From Streptomyces sclerotialus (GTDB lineage Bacteria; Actinomycetota; Actinomycetes; Streptomycetales; Streptomycetaceae): a stretch of 64,000 bases of DNA. Under the pieces are notes generated by a model. That model had not been told where the DNA came from. It searched no databases and was given only the letters and a program-made list of their open reading frames with translations. The translations under genes and the position numbers were made by a program. Of the stretch, positions 31,669 to 38,902 are shown piece after piece; position 1 is the first letter of the stretch; every line of letters begins with the position of its first letter. Location: NCBI RefSeq assembly GCF_040907265.1, contig NZ_JBFOHP010000002.1, positions 6,324,001-6,388,000 on the forward strand, read 5' to 3'.

Positions 31669-32793
31669 TTACTGTGCGCCGAGCCCGGCGGCGTCCACCG
31701 GTGGCCTGCCCTCGGCCTTGAGGACCTTGTTGAGCAGCCGCAGGTCGTAGATGCCGTTCAAATCGGGCTTCTTGAGCAGTCCGGCCTTGACCGCGTGGTC
31801 CGCCTGGTCCTTGAGGGTGGAGGCCAGCGGGTCGTCGGTGACCTGCACGTTCCGGAAGGCGGAGTTCAGGACCTGGTCCGGCAGCCGGGTGCCGGACACC
31901 TTGGGGTCGGCGAGCGAGGTGTTGACCGCCTGGGCGGCCTCGCCCGGGTGGCCCTTGATCCAGTCGTTGGTCTTCACCGAGCCGCGCAGTACCGCCTCGA
32001 CGGCCTTGGGGTGCTCCTCGAGGAACTGCTTGCGGACGACGATGTTCGTGATGACGAACTTGCCGTCCTTCCAGAGCTGCTTCTCGTCCAGCAGCTTCCG
32101 GCCGCCCTCGGCGACCAGCTTGGAGGCGGTCGGCTCGGGCACCCACGCGCCGTCGACGCCGCCCTGCCGGAAGGTGGCGGGGATCTCCTTGTTGTCCTGC
32201 CGGAGGACCCCGACCTCGCCCTTCCCGGTGTCCGGGTCGACCTGGTAGCCCTTTTCGCGCAGGTAGTTGAGGAGCGCCACGTCCTGGGTGTTGCCGAGCT
32301 GCGGCGAGGCGATCCGCTTGCCCTTGAGGTCCTTCAGGGACTTGATCTTCCTGGGGTTCACGACCAGCGAGACGCCGCCCGAGGCGGAGCCCCCGATGAT
32401 CTTCAGGTTGTCGCCGTGCGACTGCACGTAGCCGTTGATCGCGGGGGACGGCCCGATCCAGCCGATGTCGATCGTCTTCGAGTTCAGCGCCTCGATCTCC
32501 GAGGGCCCGGCGTTGAAGATGTACGGCTTGACCTGCGTACCGCCCAGTTCCTTCTGGAGGAAGCCCTGCTGCCGGTCCACCATGGGCGTCGCGTGCGTGA
32601 CGTTCCCGAAGTAGCCGATCTTCACCGCGTCCAGCCCGTCGGTCTTCGGCCCCTTCGCCGCCACCGCCTCGGTGCTCTTCGGCGCCTTGGACCCGTAACC
32701 GCAGGCCCCCAGCGCCCCGATCAGCAGCGGGACGGTGGCGGCCGCCGCGAGCAGGCGGCGGGCGGTGGAGCGGGGGCGAGCGGCAGGCAGCAC
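31669..32793 (-). CDS. ssuA: Aliphatic sulfonate-type ABC transporter substrate-binding lipoprotein
   Basis: 374 residues. Signal RRLLAAAATVPLLIGALGAC with lipobox LGAC. NMT1/SsuA-like fold: VKIGYFGNVTHATPMV, SKTIDIGWIGPSPAINGYV, LKDLKGKRIASPQLGNTQDVALL and GGVDGAWVPEPTASKLV. The start is a GTG at 32793 with GAGAGGAAA about 9 nt upstream. First gene of the transporter block inside the sulfur operon, so the cargo is a sulfur source, most likely a sulfonate or sulfate ester. Confidence 0.9.
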   Translation of the reverse strand: MLPAARPRSTARRLLAAAATVPLLIGALGACGYGSKAPKSTEAVAAKGPKTDGLDAVKIGYFGNVTHATPMVDRQQGFLQKELGGTQVKPYIFNAGPSEIEALNSKTIDIGWIGPSPAINGYVQSHGDNLKIIGGSASGGVSLVVNPRKIKSLKDLKGKRIASPQLGNTQDVALLNYLREKGYQVDPDTGKGEVGVLRQDNKEIPATFRQGGVDGAWVPEPTASKLVAEGGRKLLDEKQLWKDGKFVITNIVVRKQFLEEHPKAVEAVLRGSVKTNDWIKGHPGEAAQAVNTSLADPKVSGTRLPDQVLNSAFRNVQVTDDPLASTLKDQADHAVKAGLLKKPDLNGIYDLRLLNKVLKAEGRPPVDAAGLGAQ

Positions 32794-33010: not shown

Positions 33011-34357
33011 TCAGAAGTCCCAGCCCTCGTCGTCGGCCTGCTGGGCGCGGGCCGCCTCGGCGTCCTCGGCGAACGCCGTGCCCGCCATGCCGGCGGTCAG
33101 CGTCGTCCCGTCGGACGGGTCGATGAGCAGGAACGAACCGGTGCGCCGGGAGTCCGCGTAGGCGTCCACCGGCAGCGGCTCGGCTGTGCGGACCCTGATC
33201 CGGCCGATGTCGTTGGCGACCAGCTCGCCCGGCGCCGGGTGCTGGGACAGGTCGTCCAGCGTGAGCCGGGAGCGGATCTCCTTGACGATCGCCTTGACCG
33301 TACGGGTGGTGTGCTTCAGCAGCACCCGCTGGCCCTCGACCAGCGGCCGGTCCGCCACGTGGCAGATGGTCGCCTCGATGTCCTGCGACACGGCCGGGGC
33401 CGCGGCGGCCGGGGCGATCAGGTCGCCGCGCGAGACGTCGATGTCGTCGGCGAGCCGCACGGTCACCGACTGCGGCGCCCAGGCCACGTCCACGGACTCG
33501 CCCAGCGCGTCGATGCCCTCGATGGTGGAGGTGGCGCCGGACGGCAGCACCGTCACCTCGTCGCCGACGCGCAGCACGCCGGCGGCGATCTGGCCCGCGT
33601 AACCGCGGTAGTCGGGGTGCTCGGCGGTCTGCGGCCGGATGACGTACTGCACGGGGAAGCGCGCCGCGTCGTTCGACGGGTCGGTGACGACCGGGACCGT
33701 CTCCAGGTGCTCCAGCACCGTCGGGCCGCCGTACCAGTCCATGTTGGCGGACGGCGTCACGACGTTGTCCCCGGCCAGCGCCGAGATCGGGATCGTGGTG
33801 ATCTCCGGGACGCCCAGCGAGGCGGCGTACTTCGTGAACTCCTCGGCGATGGCCGCGAAGACCGACTCCTGGTAGTCCACCAGGTCCATCTTGTTCACGG
33901 CCAGCACCACGTGCGGCACGCGCAGCAGCGCGGCGACGGCCGCGTGCCGGCGGGTCTGCTCGACGACGCCGTTGCGGGCGTCGACCAGGACGACCGCCAG
34001 TTCGGCGGTCGAAGCGCCGGTGACCATGTTGCGGGTGTACTGCACATGGCCCGGGGTGTCGGCGAGGATGAACCGCCGCCGGGGCGTGGCGAAGTAGCGG
34101 TAGGCGACATCGATGGTGATGCCCTGCTCGCGCTCGGCCCGCAGCCCGTCGGTCAGCAGCGCCAGGTCCGGTGTCTCCTGGCCGCGGCTGGCGGAGGCGC
34201 GCTCGACCGCCTCCAGCTGGTCGGTCAGGACCGACTTGGAGTCGTGCAGCAGCCGCCCGACCAGGGTGGACTTGCCGTCGTCGACGGAGCCGGCGGTGGC
34301 GAAGCGCAGCAGGGAGGTGGCGCCGGCGTCCAGGACGCCGTCGGTAACAGTGGTCAT
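33011..34357 (-). CDS. cysN: Sulfate adenylyltransferase subunit 1 (GTPase)
   Basis: 448 residues. The GTPase subunit drives formation of APS from sulfate and ATP by CysD. G1 AGSVDDGKSTLVGRLL, G3 LADTPGHVQYTRNM, G4 VLAVNKMDLVDY, followed by EF-Tu-like beta barrels. Length matches stand-alone CysN; no APS kinase domain is fused, consistent with the separate cysC. ATG at 34357, 2 nt after the cysD stop. Confidence 0.96.
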   Translation of the reverse strand: MTTVTDGVLDAGATSLLRFATAGSVDDGKSTLVGRLLHDSKSVLTDQLEAVERASASRGQETPDLALLTDGLRAEREQGITIDVAYRYFATPRRRFILADTPGHVQYTRNMVTGASTAELAVVLVDARNGVVEQTRRHAAVAALLRVPHVVLAVNKMDLVDYQESVFAAIAEEFTKYAASLGVPEITTIPISALAGDNVVTPSANMDWYGGPTVLEHLETVPVVTDPSNDAARFPVQYVIRPQTAEHPDYRGYAGQIAAGVLRVGDEVTVLPSGATSTIEGIDALGESVDVAWAPQSVTVRLADDIDVSRGDLIAPAAAAPAVSQDIEATICHVADRPLVEGQRVLLKHTTRTVKAIVKEIRSRLTLDDLSQHPAPGELVANDIGRIRVRTAEPLPVDAYADSRRTGSFLLIDPSDGTTLTAGMAGTAFAEDAEAARAQQADDEGWDF

Positions 34358-34359
34358 GG

Positions 34360-35316
34360 TTAGAAGTACCCCTCGCGCTTACGGTCCTCCATGGCGGCCT
34401 CGGACATCTTGTCGTCGGCCCGCGTGGCGCCCCGCTCGGTGAGCCGGGACGCGGCGATCTCCGCGATCACGGCGTCGTTGTCGGCCGCGTCGGAGTCGAC
34501 GGCGCCGGTGCAGGACATGTCGCCGACGGTGCGGTAGCGCACCCGCCGCTTCTCGACCCGCTCGCCCTCCTTGGGGCCGCCCCACTCGCCCGGCGCCAGC
34601 CACATGCCGTTGCGGGCGAAGACCTCGCGCTCGTGCGCGTAGTAGATCGCGGGCAGCTCGATGTTCTCCCGGCCGATGTACTGCCAGACGTCCAGCTCGG
34701 TCCAGTTGGACAGCGGGAACACCCGGACGTGCTCACCGGGGGAGTGCCGGCCGTTGTAGAGCTGCCACAGCTCCGGGCGCTGCCGGCGCGGGTCCCAGCC
34801 GCCGAACTCGGTCCGCAGGGAGAAGACGCGCTCCTTGGCGCGGGCCTTCTCCTCGTCCCGGCGGCCGCCGCCGAAGACCGCGTCGTAGCGGCCCTTGTCG
34901 ATGGCGTCCAGCAGCGGGACGGTCTGCAGCGGGTTGCGGGTGCCGTCCGGGCGCTCGCGCAGCTCGCCGCGGTCGATGAAGTCCTGTACGGACGCGACGT
35001 GCAGGCGCAGCCCGTGCTTCTCGACCGTACGGTCCCGGTACTCCAGGACCTCCGGGAAGTTGTGCCCGGTGTCCACGTGCAGCAGGGAGAACGGCACCGG
35101 CGCGGGCGCGAACGCCTTGAGCGCCAGGTGCAGCATGACGATGGAGTCCTTGCCGCCGGAGAAGAGGATCACCGGGCGCTCGAACTCGCCCGCCACCTCG
35201 CGGAAGATGTGGACCGCCTCCGACTCCAGCGCGTCCAGGTGGGACAGCGCGTACGGAGAGTCGTCGCCCTCCGGTACCGGGCCGGTACCGGTGCGGGTCG
35301 TTGCTGCCGTCGTCAT
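34360..35316 (-). CDS. cysD: Sulfate adenylyltransferase subunit 2
   Basis: 318 residues. Catalytic subunit of ATP sulfurylase, PAPS-reductase-like fold: PP-loop ILFSGGKDSIVMLHLALKAF, HVDTGHNFPEVLEYRD, FGGGRRDEEKARAKERVFS, and HVRVFPLSNWTELDVWQYI. The C-terminus KMSEAAMEDRKREGYF is family-typical. ATG at 35316 with AAGGGGA upstream; it overlaps the cysC stop by 4 nt (ATGA). Confidence 0.97.
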   Translation of the reverse strand: MTTAATTRTGTGPVPEGDDSPYALSHLDALESEAVHIFREVAGEFERPVILFSGGKDSIVMLHLALKAFAPAPVPFSLLHVDTGHNFPEVLEYRDRTVEKHGLRLHVASVQDFIDRGELRERPDGTRNPLQTVPLLDAIDKGRYDAVFGGGRRDEEKARAKERVFSLRTEFGGWDPRRQRPELWQLYNGRHSPGEHVRVFPLSNWTELDVWQYIGRENIELPAIYYAHEREVFARNGMWLAPGEWGGPKEGERVEKRRVRYRTVGDMSCTGAVDSDAADNDAVIAEIAASRLTERGATRADDKMSEAAMEDRKREGYF

Positions 35317-35846
35317 GCCAGTCCCCTTTCGGTGAGCAGCGCGTACAGCGCCGCCGCGGACTCCTGCACGGTCTGGGTGTGCGACTCGATCCGCAGATCG
35401 GGCGACTCGGGAGCCTCGTACGGGTCGTCCACACCGGTCAGCCCGGTGAGCTCGCCCGCCGCCTGCTTGGCGTACAGGCCTTTCACGTCCCGCTCGGAGC
35501 AGACCTCGACGGGCGTGGCGACGTGCACCTCCAGGTAGGGCGTGCCCTCCTGCTGGTGGCGCTTGCGCACCGCCTCCCGGCTGTCCGCGTACGGCGCGAT
35601 CACCGGCACCAGGGCCTTGACGCCGTTGCTGGCCAGCAGCTCGGCGACGAAGCCGATCCGCTGCACGTTGGTGTGCCGGTCCTCCCGGCTGAAGCCGAGA
35701 CCCGCGGAGAGGAACTCCCGGATCTCGTCGCCGTCGAGCACCTCGACGCGGTGGCCCTCGCCGCGCAGCTTCCCGGCCAGCTCGTGCGCGATGGTCGTCT
35801 TGCCCGCGCTCGGCAGACCGGTCAGCCAGATCGTGGCGCCCGTCAT
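35313..35846 (-). CDS. cysC: Adenylylsulfate (APS) kinase
   Basis: 177 residues from the ATG at 35846, which has AGGAG 7 nt upstream; the ATG at 35870 gives 8 extra residues but has no Shine-Dalgarno. P-loop WLTGLPSAGKTTIAHELA, GDEIREFLSAGLGFSREDR, and FVAELLASNGVKALVPVIAPY. It phosphorylates APS to PAPS. Because the adjacent CysH looks like an APS-type reductase, PAPS may serve sulfation as well as, or instead of, assimilation. Confidence 0.94.
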   Translation of the reverse strand: MTGATIWLTGLPSAGKTTIAHELAGKLRGEGHRVEVLDGDEIREFLSAGLGFSREDRHTNVQRIGFVAELLASNGVKALVPVIAPYADSREAVRKRHQQEGTPYLEVHVATPVEVCSERDVKGLYAKQAAGELTGLTGVDDPYEAPESPDLRIESHTQTVQESAAALYALLTERGLA

Positions 35847-35886
35847 TCGTATCTCCTGAGTGTCCGTCATCGTGCGGTCAGCGGCC

Positions 35887-36588
35887 CTATCCGTGCAGTC
35901 CGCACTCGGTCTTGTTGCTGCCGGCCCAGCGGCCGGCCCTGACGTCCTCGCCTTCCAGCACGCGCCGCGTGCAGGGCGCGCAGCCGACCGAGGCGTAGCC
36001 GTCCTGGAGCAGCGGGTTGGTGAGCACGCCGTGCTCGGTGACGTACGCGTCCACGTCCGCCTGCGTCCACTTCGCGATCGGCGAGACCTTCACCTTCTGC
36101 CGCTTGGCGTCCCAGCCGACGACCGGGGTGTTCGCCCGGGTGGGCGACTCGTCCCGGCGCAGGCCCGTCGCCCACGCGTCGTACCCGGCCAGGCCCTCTT
36201 CGAGGGGCTTGACCTTGCGCAGCGCGCAGCACAGGTCGGGGTCGCGGTCGTGCAGCTTCGGGCCGTACTCGGCGTCCTGCTCGGCCACGGACTGACGCGG
36301 CGTCAGGGTGATGACGTTGACGTCCATCACCTCCGCGACCGCGTCCCGGGTGCCGAGGGTCTCCGGGAAGTGGTAACCGGTGTCCAGGAACACCACGTCC
36401 ACGCCGGGAAAGGCACGCGAGGCCAGGTGCGCGACGACCGCGTCCTCCATCGAGGAGGTGACGCAGAAGCGCGGACCGAAGGTCTCGGCGGCCCACTCGA
36501 GGATCTCCAGGGCCGGAGCGTCCTCCAGGTCGCGGCCCGCCTGCTCGGCGAGCTGCTGAAGGTCGGCTGCGGTGGTTGCGGTGGTCAC
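35887..36588 (-). CDS. cysH: Phosphoadenylyl/adenylyl-sulfate reductase, Fe-S type
   Basis: 233 residues. Reduces APS (or PAPS) to sulfite using thioredoxin. C120-C121 (DLCCALRKVKPL) plus C203-x2-C206 (VGCAPCTRR) form the four-cysteine set that holds a [4Fe-4S] cluster in APS reductases; E. coli-type PAPS reductases lack it. Catalytic Cys229 lies in the ending ECGLHG. The GTG at 36588 overlaps the stop of the 60-aa gene (GTGA), showing translational coupling. Confidence 0.94.
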   Translation of the reverse strand: MTTATTAADLQQLAEQAGRDLEDAPALEILEWAAETFGPRFCVTSSMEDAVVAHLASRAFPGVDVVFLDTGYHFPETLGTRDAVAEVMDVNVITLTPRQSVAEQDAEYGPKLHDRDPDLCCALRKVKPLEEGLAGYDAWATGLRRDESPTRANTPVVGWDAKRQKVKVSPIAKWTQADVDAYVTEHGVLTNPLLQDGYASVGCAPCTRRVLEGEDVRAGRWAGSNKTECGLHG

Positions 36589-36767
36589 GACTCACCTCCG
36601 TCGGAAGGGGACTTGCCGGACACGCCCGGGGCCAGCAGGCCCAGGAACTTGAGCCGGAACGCACGGCTGCAGGACCGGCATTCCCAGGCCCCGTGGCCCT
36701 CCTCGGAGGGCCGCAGGTCCTCGTCCCCGCAGTACGGGCAGAAGAACGGTGCTGCGCGTTCCGTCAC
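36585..36767 (-). CDS. 60-aa zinc-ribbon protein between sir and cysH
   Basis: MTERAAPFFCPYCGDEDLRP...WECRSCSRAFRLKFLG: a small protein with two CxxC knuckles (C10-x2-C13 and C29-x2-C32 region), i.e. a zinc ribbon or rubredoxin-like fold. The GTG start at 36767 overlaps the sulfite reductase stop by 4 nt, and its TGA overlaps the cysH GTG by 4 nt, so it is fixed in the operon by coupling on both sides. As I recall, the same gene lies between sir and cysH in other Streptomyces. Role unknown; a redox or metal carrier for sulfite reductase or CysH is speculation. Confidence 0.85.
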   Translation of the reverse strand: MTERAAPFFCPYCGDEDLRPSEEGHGAWECRSCSRAFRLKFLGLLAPGVSGKSPSDGGES

Positions 36768-38455
36768 TTGAGAGCACCCTCTTCGGCGCGGGCCGCCCAC
36801 TGGGCGAACCGCTCGCCCTCGGTGCGCTCCGCCTCGAAGTTGCGCAGCACCCGCTCGACGTAGTCGGGGAGTTCGTCGGCGGTGACCTTCAGGCCGCGCA
36901 CCTTGCGGCCGAAGCCGGCCTCCAGGGCCAGCGCGCCGCCCAGGTGCACCTGGAAGCCCTCGACCTGATTGCCGTCGGCGTCCAGGACCAGCTGGCCCTT
37001 GAGACCGATGTCCGCGGTCTGGATACGGGCGCAGGCGTTCGGGCAGCCGTTGAGGTTGATGGTGACCGGCTCCTGGAAGTCCGGCATCCGGCGCTCCAGC
37101 TCGTCGATGAGGGACGCGCCGCGGCCCTTGGTCTCGACGATGGCCAGCTTGCAGAACTCGATACCGGTGCAGGCCATGGTGCCGCGCCGGAACGGCGAGG
37201 GCTTGACCTGGAAGTCCAGCGCCTCCAGCCCGGCGACCAGCGAGTCGACCTGGTCCTCGGCCACGTCGAGGATGATCATCTTCTGCTCGACGGTGGTGTT
37301 CAGCCGGTCCGAGCCGTGCTCGGCGGCCAGCTCGGCGATCTTGGTGAGGGTCTTGCCGTCGACGCGGCCGACGCGCGGTGCGAAGCCGACGTAGAAGCGG
37401 CCGTCCTGCTGCTTGTGGACGCCGATGTGGTCGCGCCACTTCGAGGTCGGCGCCTCGGGCGCCGGGCCGTCCACCATCTTGCGCTGGAGGTACTCGTCCT
37501 CCAGCACCTGGCGGAACTTCTCCACGCCCCAGTCGGCGACCAGGAACTTCAGGCGGGCGCGGTTGCGCAGCCGGCGGTAGCCGTAGTCACGGAAGATGCC
37601 GACCACTCCGGCCCAGACGTCCGCGACCTCGTCCAGCGGCACCCACGTGCCCAGCCGCTGCGCGAGCTTGGGGTTGGTGGACAGGCCGCCGCCGACCCAG
37701 AGGTCGAAGCCGGGGCCGTGCTCGGGGTGGTTCACGCCGACGAAGGCCACGTCGTTGATCTCGTGTACCACATCCTGGACAGGGGAGCCCGAGACCGCGG
37801 TCTTGAACTTGCGCGGCAGGTTGGAGAACTCCTTGCTGCCGATGTAGCGCTCGTGGATCTCGTTCACGGCGGGGGTGCCGTCGATGATCTCGTCGGCGGC
37901 GATACCGGCCACGGGGGAGCCGATGATCACACGCGGGCAGTCGCCGCACGCCTCGGTCGTGGACAGCCCGACGGACTCCAGCTTGTCCCAGATGGCGGGC
38001 ACGTCCTCGATGCGTACCCAGTGCAGCTGGATGTTCTGCCGGTCGGTGATGTCCGCGGTGCCGCGGGCGTACTGCTCGGAGACCTCGCCGATGGCGCGCA
38101 GCTGGGCGACGGTCAGCCGGCCGCCGTCCACGCGCACGCGCAGCATGAAGTACTTGTCCTCCAGCTCCTCCGGCTCCAGGACCGCGGTCTTGCCGCCGTC
38201 GATGCCGGGCCGGCGCTGGGTGTACAGGCCCCACCAGCGCATCCGGCCGCGCAGGTCGTTGGGGTCGATCGAGTCGAAGCCGCGCTTGGAGTAGATCGTC
38301 TCAATGCGTGTCCGCACATTGAGACCGTCGTCGTCCTTCTTGAACTGCTCGTTGCCGTTGAGCGGAGTGAAGTGACCAACGGCCCACTGGCCCTCACCGC
38401 GGTGGCGTCCGGCCTTGCGGCGGGTCGTGGCGGGGCGTTCGGGAGTGGCGGCCAT
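36764..38455 (-). CDS. sir: Ferredoxin-type sulfite (nitrite/sulfite) reductase
   Basis: 563 residues from the ATG at 38455 (GAAGGA upstream); the frame runs back to 38542 without better signals. Siroheme/[4Fe-4S] enzyme reducing sulfite to sulfide by six electrons. Duplicated ferrite-like halves; cluster ligands in ACTGIEFCKLAI (C-x5-C) and NLNGCPNACAR (C-x3-C). Siroheme-site residues lie in TDRQNIQLHW and TEACGDCPRVIIG; that Cys also matches the Cys of the Tyr-Cys link known in M. tuberculosis NirA. Sulfite is likelier than nitrite here because the gene heads a cysHCDN operon. Confidence 0.94.
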   Translation of the reverse strand: MAATPERPATTRRKAGRHRGEGQWAVGHFTPLNGNEQFKKDDDGLNVRTRIETIYSKRGFDSIDPNDLRGRMRWWGLYTQRRPGIDGGKTAVLEPEELEDKYFMLRVRVDGGRLTVAQLRAIGEVSEQYARGTADITDRQNIQLHWVRIEDVPAIWDKLESVGLSTTEACGDCPRVIIGSPVAGIAADEIIDGTPAVNEIHERYIGSKEFSNLPRKFKTAVSGSPVQDVVHEINDVAFVGVNHPEHGPGFDLWVGGGLSTNPKLAQRLGTWVPLDEVADVWAGVVGIFRDYGYRRLRNRARLKFLVADWGVEKFRQVLEDEYLQRKMVDGPAPEAPTSKWRDHIGVHKQQDGRFYVGFAPRVGRVDGKTLTKIAELAAEHGSDRLNTTVEQKMIILDVAEDQVDSLVAGLEALDFQVKPSPFRRGTMACTGIEFCKLAIVETKGRGASLIDELERRMPDFQEPVTINLNGCPNACARIQTADIGLKGQLVLDADGNQVEGFQVHLGGALALEAGFGRKVRGLKVTADELPDYVERVLRNFEAERTEGERFAQWAARAEEGALK

Positions 38456-38550
38456 GGTGAATACGTCCTTCTCGGCGGCTGCAGGAAATGCGGGCTGAAG
38501 CGGTTTCAGGCCGGGTGCACCCACTGTGACCTGCGAAGACATGCCTGTTC

Positions 38551-38562: not shown

Positions 38563-38685
38563 AGCGCGCCTTGGCATGGCTTGCCGGATCAGGGGTGGTC
38601 GCACGTCCGCGACGATGGGGACGGCGAGGGAAAGTCGGTGGAGCTGGGTGCTGTCAGGGGTGATGAGTCCCCGTGGGGTACAGCG

Positions 38686-38769
38686 TCAGCGCGCCTGACA
38701 GATGGCGCTGGACACGCGCGCAAGGTCGACGTGGCGCCGACTCACCAAGGCAATTCCAGCTCGAGACAT
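38686..38769 (-). CDS. 27-aa Cys-containing leader peptide of the sulfur operon
   Basis: Begins MSRAGIALVSRRHVDLAR and ends with SAIC then QAR-stop. It matches the short 'putative leader peptide' type with an RRHVDLxR core and a Cys near the end that, from memory, precedes many actinobacterial sulfur genes. It starts 314 bp upstream of sir on the same strand. No good Shine-Dalgarno is seen, so the transcript may be leaderless or start close to the ATG. The likely role is cysteine-dependent attenuation or ribosome stalling that controls the operon; the mechanism is inferred. Confidence 0.8.
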   Translation of the reverse strand: MSRAGIALVSRRHVDLARVSSAICQAR

Positions 38770-38902
38770 GACGGAAGCGTGTCACGACGGTCTTGGGCCA
38801 GTCCACCATTGTCCAAAATACGGACGGCTATGTCTTGCTTTGTGAGACATTGTGGCGCCGGTCACGTTCCGCTTGCCGTGACCGGCGCCGAGGAGGTCCG
38901 GC

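Follow-up and report, generated by a model that had tools for sequence, protein, structure and literature searches.

The window (the whole stretch of 64,000 nucleotides analysed here) carries on its minus strand a sulfur operon that begins with sir, encoding a nitrite/sulfite reductase, and continues through a small protein with two CxxC pairs, two PAPS reductase domain proteins, an APS kinase and an EF-Tu-type GTPase (Table 1). Transporter genes, including one for an NMT1-type substrate-binding protein, are separated from the GTPase gene by 217 nt. In front of sir lies a short ORF, read on the minus strand as ATG...TGA from 38769 to 38686 and encoding MSRAGIALVSRRHVDLARVSSAICQAR. The sir ATG that is in frame with the homologues is located at 38455, so the ORF starts 314 nt and stops 230 nt before sir. 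The window sequence and this homologue-based start bear out the description, given in an earlier note on this DNA, of a 27-codon ORF 314 nt upstream of sir. The RRHVDLAR core and the SAIC pointed out there are both present, with the Cys codon, TGT, near the 3' end at 38700-38698.

Table 1. Features of the sir locus, in window coordinates
Feature	Position	Strand	Basis
Candidate operator made of two inverted repeats, GTCTC..AAGAC and GTCC..GTGGAC	38801..38848	minus	conservation, loose patterns
Proposed promoter, GGACTG (38799-38804) and CACGCT (38776-38781) spaced by 17 nt, with transcription beginning at the ATG	38776..38804	minus	inferred from conservation
Leader ORF, 27 codons, MSRAGIALVSRRHVDLARVSSAICQAR and stop	38686..38769	minus	window sequence, NF042934 match, conservation before sir
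Conserved core, codons 11-24, RRHVDLARVSSAIC	38698..38739	minus	pN/pS 0.16, 69 distinct ORFs
Key cysteine codon TGT, codon 24	38698..38700	minus	69/69 distinct sir leaders, 170/174 distinct motifs
UGU-to-stop segment, proposed as a switch strand, with either of two partners	38686..38700	minus	co-variation with near arm and SD region
60-nt stretch rich in C and poor in G (31 C, 8 G), where Rho may load	38609..38668	minus	base counts
Near arm CCTGACAG, fully complementary to CTGTCAGG (38694-38701)	38651..38658	minus	stem P2 homologous in relatives
sir Shine-Dalgarno AAGGA, context GAGAAGGACGTA, possible switch-strand partner	38466..38470	minus	GGAC context in 131/133 sir loci
sir, nitrite/sulfite reductase, first operon gene	36764..38455	minus	Pfam NIR_SIR, NIR_SIR_ferr (scanned from upstream ATG 38542)
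60-aa protein VTERAAPFFCPYCGDEDL..., two CxxC pairs, overlaps sir and the next (cysH-like) gene	36585..36767	minus	reading frame
PAPS reductase domain protein, cysH-like	35887..36588	minus	domain scan
APS kinase, cysC-like	35313..35870	minus	domain scan
PAPS reductase domain protein, cysD-like by position	34360..35316	minus	domain scan
EF-Tu-type GTPase, cysN-like by position	33011..34357	minus	domain scan
NMT1-type substrate-binding protein	31669..32793	minus	217 nt after GTPase gene

The ORF matches the NCBIfam model NF042934, 'putative leader peptide' (cis_reg_atten), with 38.1 bits and an E value of 7.9e-10 against a cut-off of 27. It has the same R-x-H-V-D-L-x-R...C core and, as is typical of the family, is placed before a regulatable metabolic gene, here sir 230 nt downstream; no tested feature differs, the model having been compared by its name and description. 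The ORF is therefore a member of a leader-peptide family that is already catalogued, and the earlier remark that it is too short for routine gene calling has to be corrected, as NCBI maintains a curated model for the family.

A sir gene was found in 149 of the 150 genomes of the genus searched. The 110 genus loci compared are the best 30 of the 149 matching genomes together with 80 named loci, some strains being represented twice. The leader ORF is present in every one of the 109 loci with enough upstream DNA. Its HVDL motif occurs in 105 of the 110 loci and is replaced by HVDF in four; the last, L115, has just 116 nt of upstream DNA. A family-wide set gave the same picture, with the ORF in 39/39 testable sir loci. 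This set adds 40 loci, of which four belong to the genus of the window; the regular motif is seen in 36 and a variant, HVDY or HVDH, in three, while the contig of the remaining one (L273) ends too soon. A chance ORF is thus ruled out by conservation and is left with a negligible probability: the ORF is short and the whole leader of the window folds no better than shuffles (z -0.54), but the profile match, the 109/109 and 39/39 conservation, the UGU codon and the selection on the peptide described below all stand against chance. By these comparisons the ORF is real.

The peptide itself is under selection. Among 69 distinct sir-leader ORFs, chosen by the HVDL pattern and hence slightly biased toward a conserved core, pN/pS is 1.28 over codons 2-4, 0.18 over codons 5-10, 0.16 over codons 11-24 and 1.18 over codons 25-27. 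The core gives 3.25 and 3.31 in the two alternative frames, and the sir gene, for comparison, gives 0.10 over 50 codons. The frame-conservation check set by the earlier note is therefore passed, and the conserved leader ORF that it placed before the sulfur genes is confirmed as one selected as a peptide in its own frame. The core also shows the trait expected of arrest peptides, a nascent-chain sequence selected before the stall site (0.16 against 1.28 and 1.18 in the flanks). As judged from these substitution patterns, selection acts on the peptide beyond a Cys codon alone. The 5' half of the sir leaders also contains near-fixed rare codons, TTG at codon 8 in 69/69 and AGT at codon 10 in 67/69 distinct ORFs.

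The choice of the Cys codon is biased as well. Codon 24 is TGT in all 69 distinct sir leader ORFs. When paralogues and class-level relatives are added to the sir leaders, UGU encodes the key Cys in 170 of the 174 distinct motifs. The other Cys codons of the same ORFs are TGT in 53 of 234 cases (Fisher p 1.3e-60 against the key codon, a descriptive value because the rows are related). TGT makes up 7 of the 570 Cys codons inside the sir genes of the same loci, and the remaining two-fold codons of the motif that end in C or T are T-ending in 68 of 325 cases. Since the NF042934 profile reads amino acids only, the TGT codon was not pre-selected by the search. The base that follows UGU is C in 143, T in 25, G in four and A in two of the 174 motifs, so UGUC as a fixed RNA motif was rejected; conservation is stronger for the codon than for a tetranucleotide, which points to a property of decoding. 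A pattern search of the genome, which tRNAs outside the pattern would escape, found two tRNA-Cys genes, both with anticodon GCA, and both decode UGU only by wobble.

The key Cys is not universal. Five of 108 family matches (L172, L186, L192, L196 and L207) have Ser, Gly or a stop in its place, which counts against universality of the UGU; these five and one of 67 class-level relatives (L228) were left out of the 174 motifs. The five form a sub-group, SRRHIDLLRV[CS]SA, in which four have a TGC Cys codon four codons earlier.

Leaders of this family are numerous in the genome and in its relatives. The genome contains eight NF042934 matches over the cut-off, the sir leader included, and two genuine-looking ones below it. 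The downstream gene was scanned for nine of these ten leaders (sir and eight others). Besides sir, the genes are ThiS-like, the dimethylsulfone monooxygenase SfnG, alkanesulfonate monooxygenase-like, cysteine dioxygenase, rhodanese, an SsuC-like permease, flavin reductase and an SDF symporter; SfnG scores over its profile cut-off, the alkanesulfonate monooxygenase-like protein and the SsuC-like permease below theirs. The leader left out of the scan, L005, has a frame that stays open for 64 codons beyond the Cys and precedes broken-looking reading frames, sulfatase-like by eye; it is possibly a decaying member. Each of 13 scanned genomes of the genus has 3 to 10 family matches. A match is present in at least 181 of 296 genomes of the class and in at least 7 of 149 drawn from the phylum, four of those seven being from the same genus; all these counts are lower bounds, as some candidates have no score. 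The multiplicity bears on the idea that the peptide works in trans as a small protein. A core conserved as amino acids would suit such a role, whereas the freely evolving peptide ends, the 3 to 10 family matches in 13/13 genomes, the position of the scanned leaders of this genome before genes of their own, mostly for sulfur metabolism, and the conserved codon choice at one Cys, a decoding property, argue against it. We consider it very improbable.

Fifteen of the leaders form a cysteine dioxygenase group (L006, L133, L134, L141-L143, L148-L150, L158-L160 and L175-L177; Pfam was checked for L006 only). Twelve of them end in CCGTCCTG, the exact complement of CAGGACGG, and one more ends in CGGTCCTG; CAGGACGG occurs downstream in 15/15. 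Induction by starvation makes little sense for an enzyme that degrades cysteine, and the regulatory sign may therefore be reversed in this group, perhaps via an earlier Cys codon.

Upstream of the sir leader an SD-like motif is absent from all 80 distinct regions compared, while 100 of 105 sir starts have one. This fits leaderless translation, and we infer from the sequence that the mRNA starts at the ATG of the ORF. A scan with the sigma-70 consensus found no promoter; the one proposed in Table 1 was derived from conservation. Further upstream are two inverted repeats, the second of which overlaps the proposed -35. Searched with loose patterns in 100 distinct upstream regions, the first (GTCTC..GRGAC) is present in 71, the second in 90 and both in 66. 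Their conservation suggests an extra DNA-level regulator acting at a repressor or activator site. With a single Cys codon and conserved inverted repeats, the peptide need not be the sole control. Taken further, the ORF might mainly hand ribosomes to sir, by reinitiation or by keeping the leader open, with regulation by the upstream operator and no special role for cysteine. Besides the repeats, this is in line with reinitiation at leader peptides as proposed in the available part of PMC4833913. However, the invariant Cys, the choice of UGU and the selection on the core peptide would be left unexplained, and 230 nt from stop to sir is long for reinitiation, which makes this reading improbable.

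The RNA that follows the Cys codon appears structured in sir leaders. Among 35 sampled sir relatives, local structure peaks in a folding window that starts exactly at UGU (mean z -1.65), and a second structured one lies about 50 nt further on (mean z -1.40). Among 45 sampled paralogues the hairpin after UGU shows no trend (mean z 0.02), and the strongest folding window is inside the ORF (mean z -1.01). An Rfam scan of the leader gave only two matches, far below the gathering score. In an alignment of 56 loci (A1), obtained from the 80 named loci after filters on spacer length and near-duplicates, stems P2 and P3 of the drawn structure, which correspond to the two folding windows of the sir relatives, have 24 both-sides-changed cells against 10.4 in shuffles, with 0 of 500 shuffles as high; sliding the partners of P2 and P3 gave 6 to 18 such cells. 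The near-arm helix of the window itself is found in the centroid and absent from the minimum-energy structure. RNAalifold on the same 56 loci returned a consensus that differs from the drawn structure and is weak (-2.53 kcal/mol, covariation term -0.19). In it, GUCC of UGUCC pairs with GGAC of the sir SD in 54 to 56 loci. As these pairs hardly vary, they lend no covariation support. The window has UGUCA in place of UGUCC, which makes the pairing with GGAC weaker; the duplex between its own switch strand and SD has -10.9 kcal/mol.

Co-variation of whole segments was assessed by exchanging them between loci, in permutations that leave the kinship between loci in place and with five segment tests uncorrected for multiple testing. 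The UGU-to-stop segment pairs better with the near arm and the SD region of its own locus than after exchange (13/2000 and 24/2000 permutations as low, respectively), and the later part of the segment fits the bases just before the SD (20/2000). A control ORF segment, codons 9-17, does not (336/2000). The far arm UCAGAGCCGCC was rejected as a partner: it is 91% paired, but its helix P4 is without covariation and 390 of 2000 permutations were as low. The co-variation pattern fits one strand with two competing partners.

Other results do not favour a switch. When a ribosome at UGU was masked in folding of 99 loci, openness of the sir SD was 0.28 free and 0.30 stalled, that is, no effect was seen; at many loci the sir SD is in any case buried in a local GUCC-CGAA-GGAC hairpin. 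Across paralogues, in a comparison with at most 12 leaders per group and with script-guessed gene starts that assigned 65 of 103 leaders, the own SD is weakly preferred (38/71 leaders in 11 groups, with 369/20000 group permutations as low). One of three control segments, in the ORF 27-50 nt before UGU, outdid this preference (71/20000), and the anti-SD idea is therefore not general. The sir switch is accordingly a proposal, drawn from comparison of relatives. The earlier suggestion that a ribosome pausing at the Cys codon changes RNA structure before the operon holds in so far as the structure in sir relatives starts at that codon, whereas masked folding shows no switch. The mechanism of the earlier note is borne out in part; that it extends to the whole operon is a conjecture, with a gap of 217 nt before the transporter genes. 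At a single locus (L190), a ten-base complement, CUCCUGUUGC and GCAACAGGAG, was seen between the leader end and the SD of a luciferase-like monooxygenase gene.

The spacer leaves room for Rho, alone or additionally. Over 98 distinct spacers the 60 nt past the ORF stop have 47% C and 22% G, and the best 60-nt spacer windows have medians of 30 C and 12 G, compared to 23 C and 18 G in 96 upstream controls; the stretch in Table 1 was counted on locus L013, whose sequence is identical to the window. A consensus scan of the window found no intrinsic terminator on the operon strand and one terminator-like site on the opposite strand, and T runs of at least five occur in 6 of 98 spacers. In Rho-dependent transcription attenuation the ribosome on the ORF would set Rho loading on the C-rich spacer, and masking of the SD would be unneeded. 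The C-rich, G-poor spacers, exceeding the upstream controls, and the operon strand free of intrinsic terminators in the scan favour this explanation, and Rho has been suggested for mycobacterial cys leaders in the accessible text of Seliverstov 2005 (PMC1262725). On the other hand, the C-rich stretch of the window begins about 17 nt past the stop, where a ribosome at UGU leaves it uncovered. Furthermore, under this explanation the UGU-to-stop segment and the SD region would not be expected to co-vary, and in a genome rich in GC an excess of C says little by itself. We regard Rho-dependent attenuation as the rather unlikely, yet most serious, alternative.

The reading we favour, with a probability of roughly 0.6, is that the ORF acts in cis as a leader peptide gene, conveying the charging of tRNA-Cys to the sir operon by translational attenuation. 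On an mRNA starting at the ATG of the ORF, a ribosome short of Cys-tRNA would halt at UGU, three sense codons before the stop. Slow decoding by wobble would favour the halt, as might the R-x-H-V-D-L-x-R nascent chain inside the tunnel. The UGU-to-stop segment would have two possible partners, the near arm just past the stop and the ribosome-binding site of sir. By covering this segment, the halted ribosome would leave the sir Shine-Dalgarno unhidden and sir would be translated; with enough cysteine the ribosome would leave and the site would be hidden. Overlapping genes, and perhaps Rho on the C-rich spacer, would pass the effect on to the downstream genes. The sign of the response, with sir switched on by cysteine shortage, is adopted by analogy with the mycobacterial case.

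Cysteine leaders have been described in mycobacteria (in the parts available of Shell 2015, PMC4633059) and in mycobacteria and two other species (likewise Seliverstov 2005, PMC1262725). For the cysteine genes of M. smegmatis translation attenuation has been reported (Canestrari 2020, as described in the accessible passages of PMC13236596 and PMC9031893). The polycysteine leaderless ORFs of mycobacteria (NF042936, Ms4527A; NF042933, Ms5788A) share with the window ORF the Cys codons near the 3' end, a sulfur operon downstream and the core motif; the window ORF scores 32.1 bits with NF042936 and 15.3 with NF042933, both below the cut-off of 45. They have a run of Cys codons, whereas the window ORF has a single Cys, and they are leaderless, while the start here is predicted from sequence and from the lack of SD-like motifs (0/80 regions). 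Mycobacterial leader RNA hides the downstream ribosome-binding site; here RNAalifold and co-variation speak for such hiding, masked folding and the group comparison against it.

Other attenuators are more distant. The uORFC-8-2 cysS attenuator of Rhodobacterales also places Cys codons in a short ORF ahead of a gene linked to cysteine, but these are tandem and dominated by UGC, and there is a run of U at the 3' end, none of which the window leader has (compared with the available part of PMC8632094). A trp-type transcription attenuator has tandem regulatory codons and an intrinsic terminator before the first gene; the window ORF has one Cys codon, and the consensus scan showed no such terminator on the operon strand. 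Ribosome-mediated amino acid attenuators likewise favour a particular synonymous codon at the sensing position. In the portion at hand of PMC1183508 this is explained by unequal charging of isoacceptors, whereas both tRNA-Cys found here share one anticodon. Of the eight leaders of S. lividans tabulated in PMC8079986, none is named as cysteine-dependent in the part available, and a literature search, conducted mostly without full texts, returned no report of a UGU bias or of a cysteine leader before Streptomyces sir. As far as this search showed, the near-fixed UGU key codon and the putative strand with two partners are new.

A wider possibility, put forward tentatively and less probable than the reading for sir, is that actinomycete cysteine leaders detect cysteine at one fixed, wobble-read UGU while the nascent chain R-x-[HA]-[VIM]-D-L-x-R, itself conserved, occupies the exit tunnel. 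Together these would give a codon-specific stall without a run of Cys codons, and the UGU-to-stop RNA would hide the ribosome-binding site of the next gene, at least before sir.

If the favoured reading is true, exchange of UGU for UGC would dull the sensor and leave the peptide unchanged. Wobble decoding would then be a selected part of the sensor, in a situation on which the theory of isoacceptor charging is silent, since one anticodon reads both codons. Furthermore, tiny ORFs acting jointly, without a protein regulator, would underlie the way in which cysteine governs sulfur assimilation in Streptomyces.
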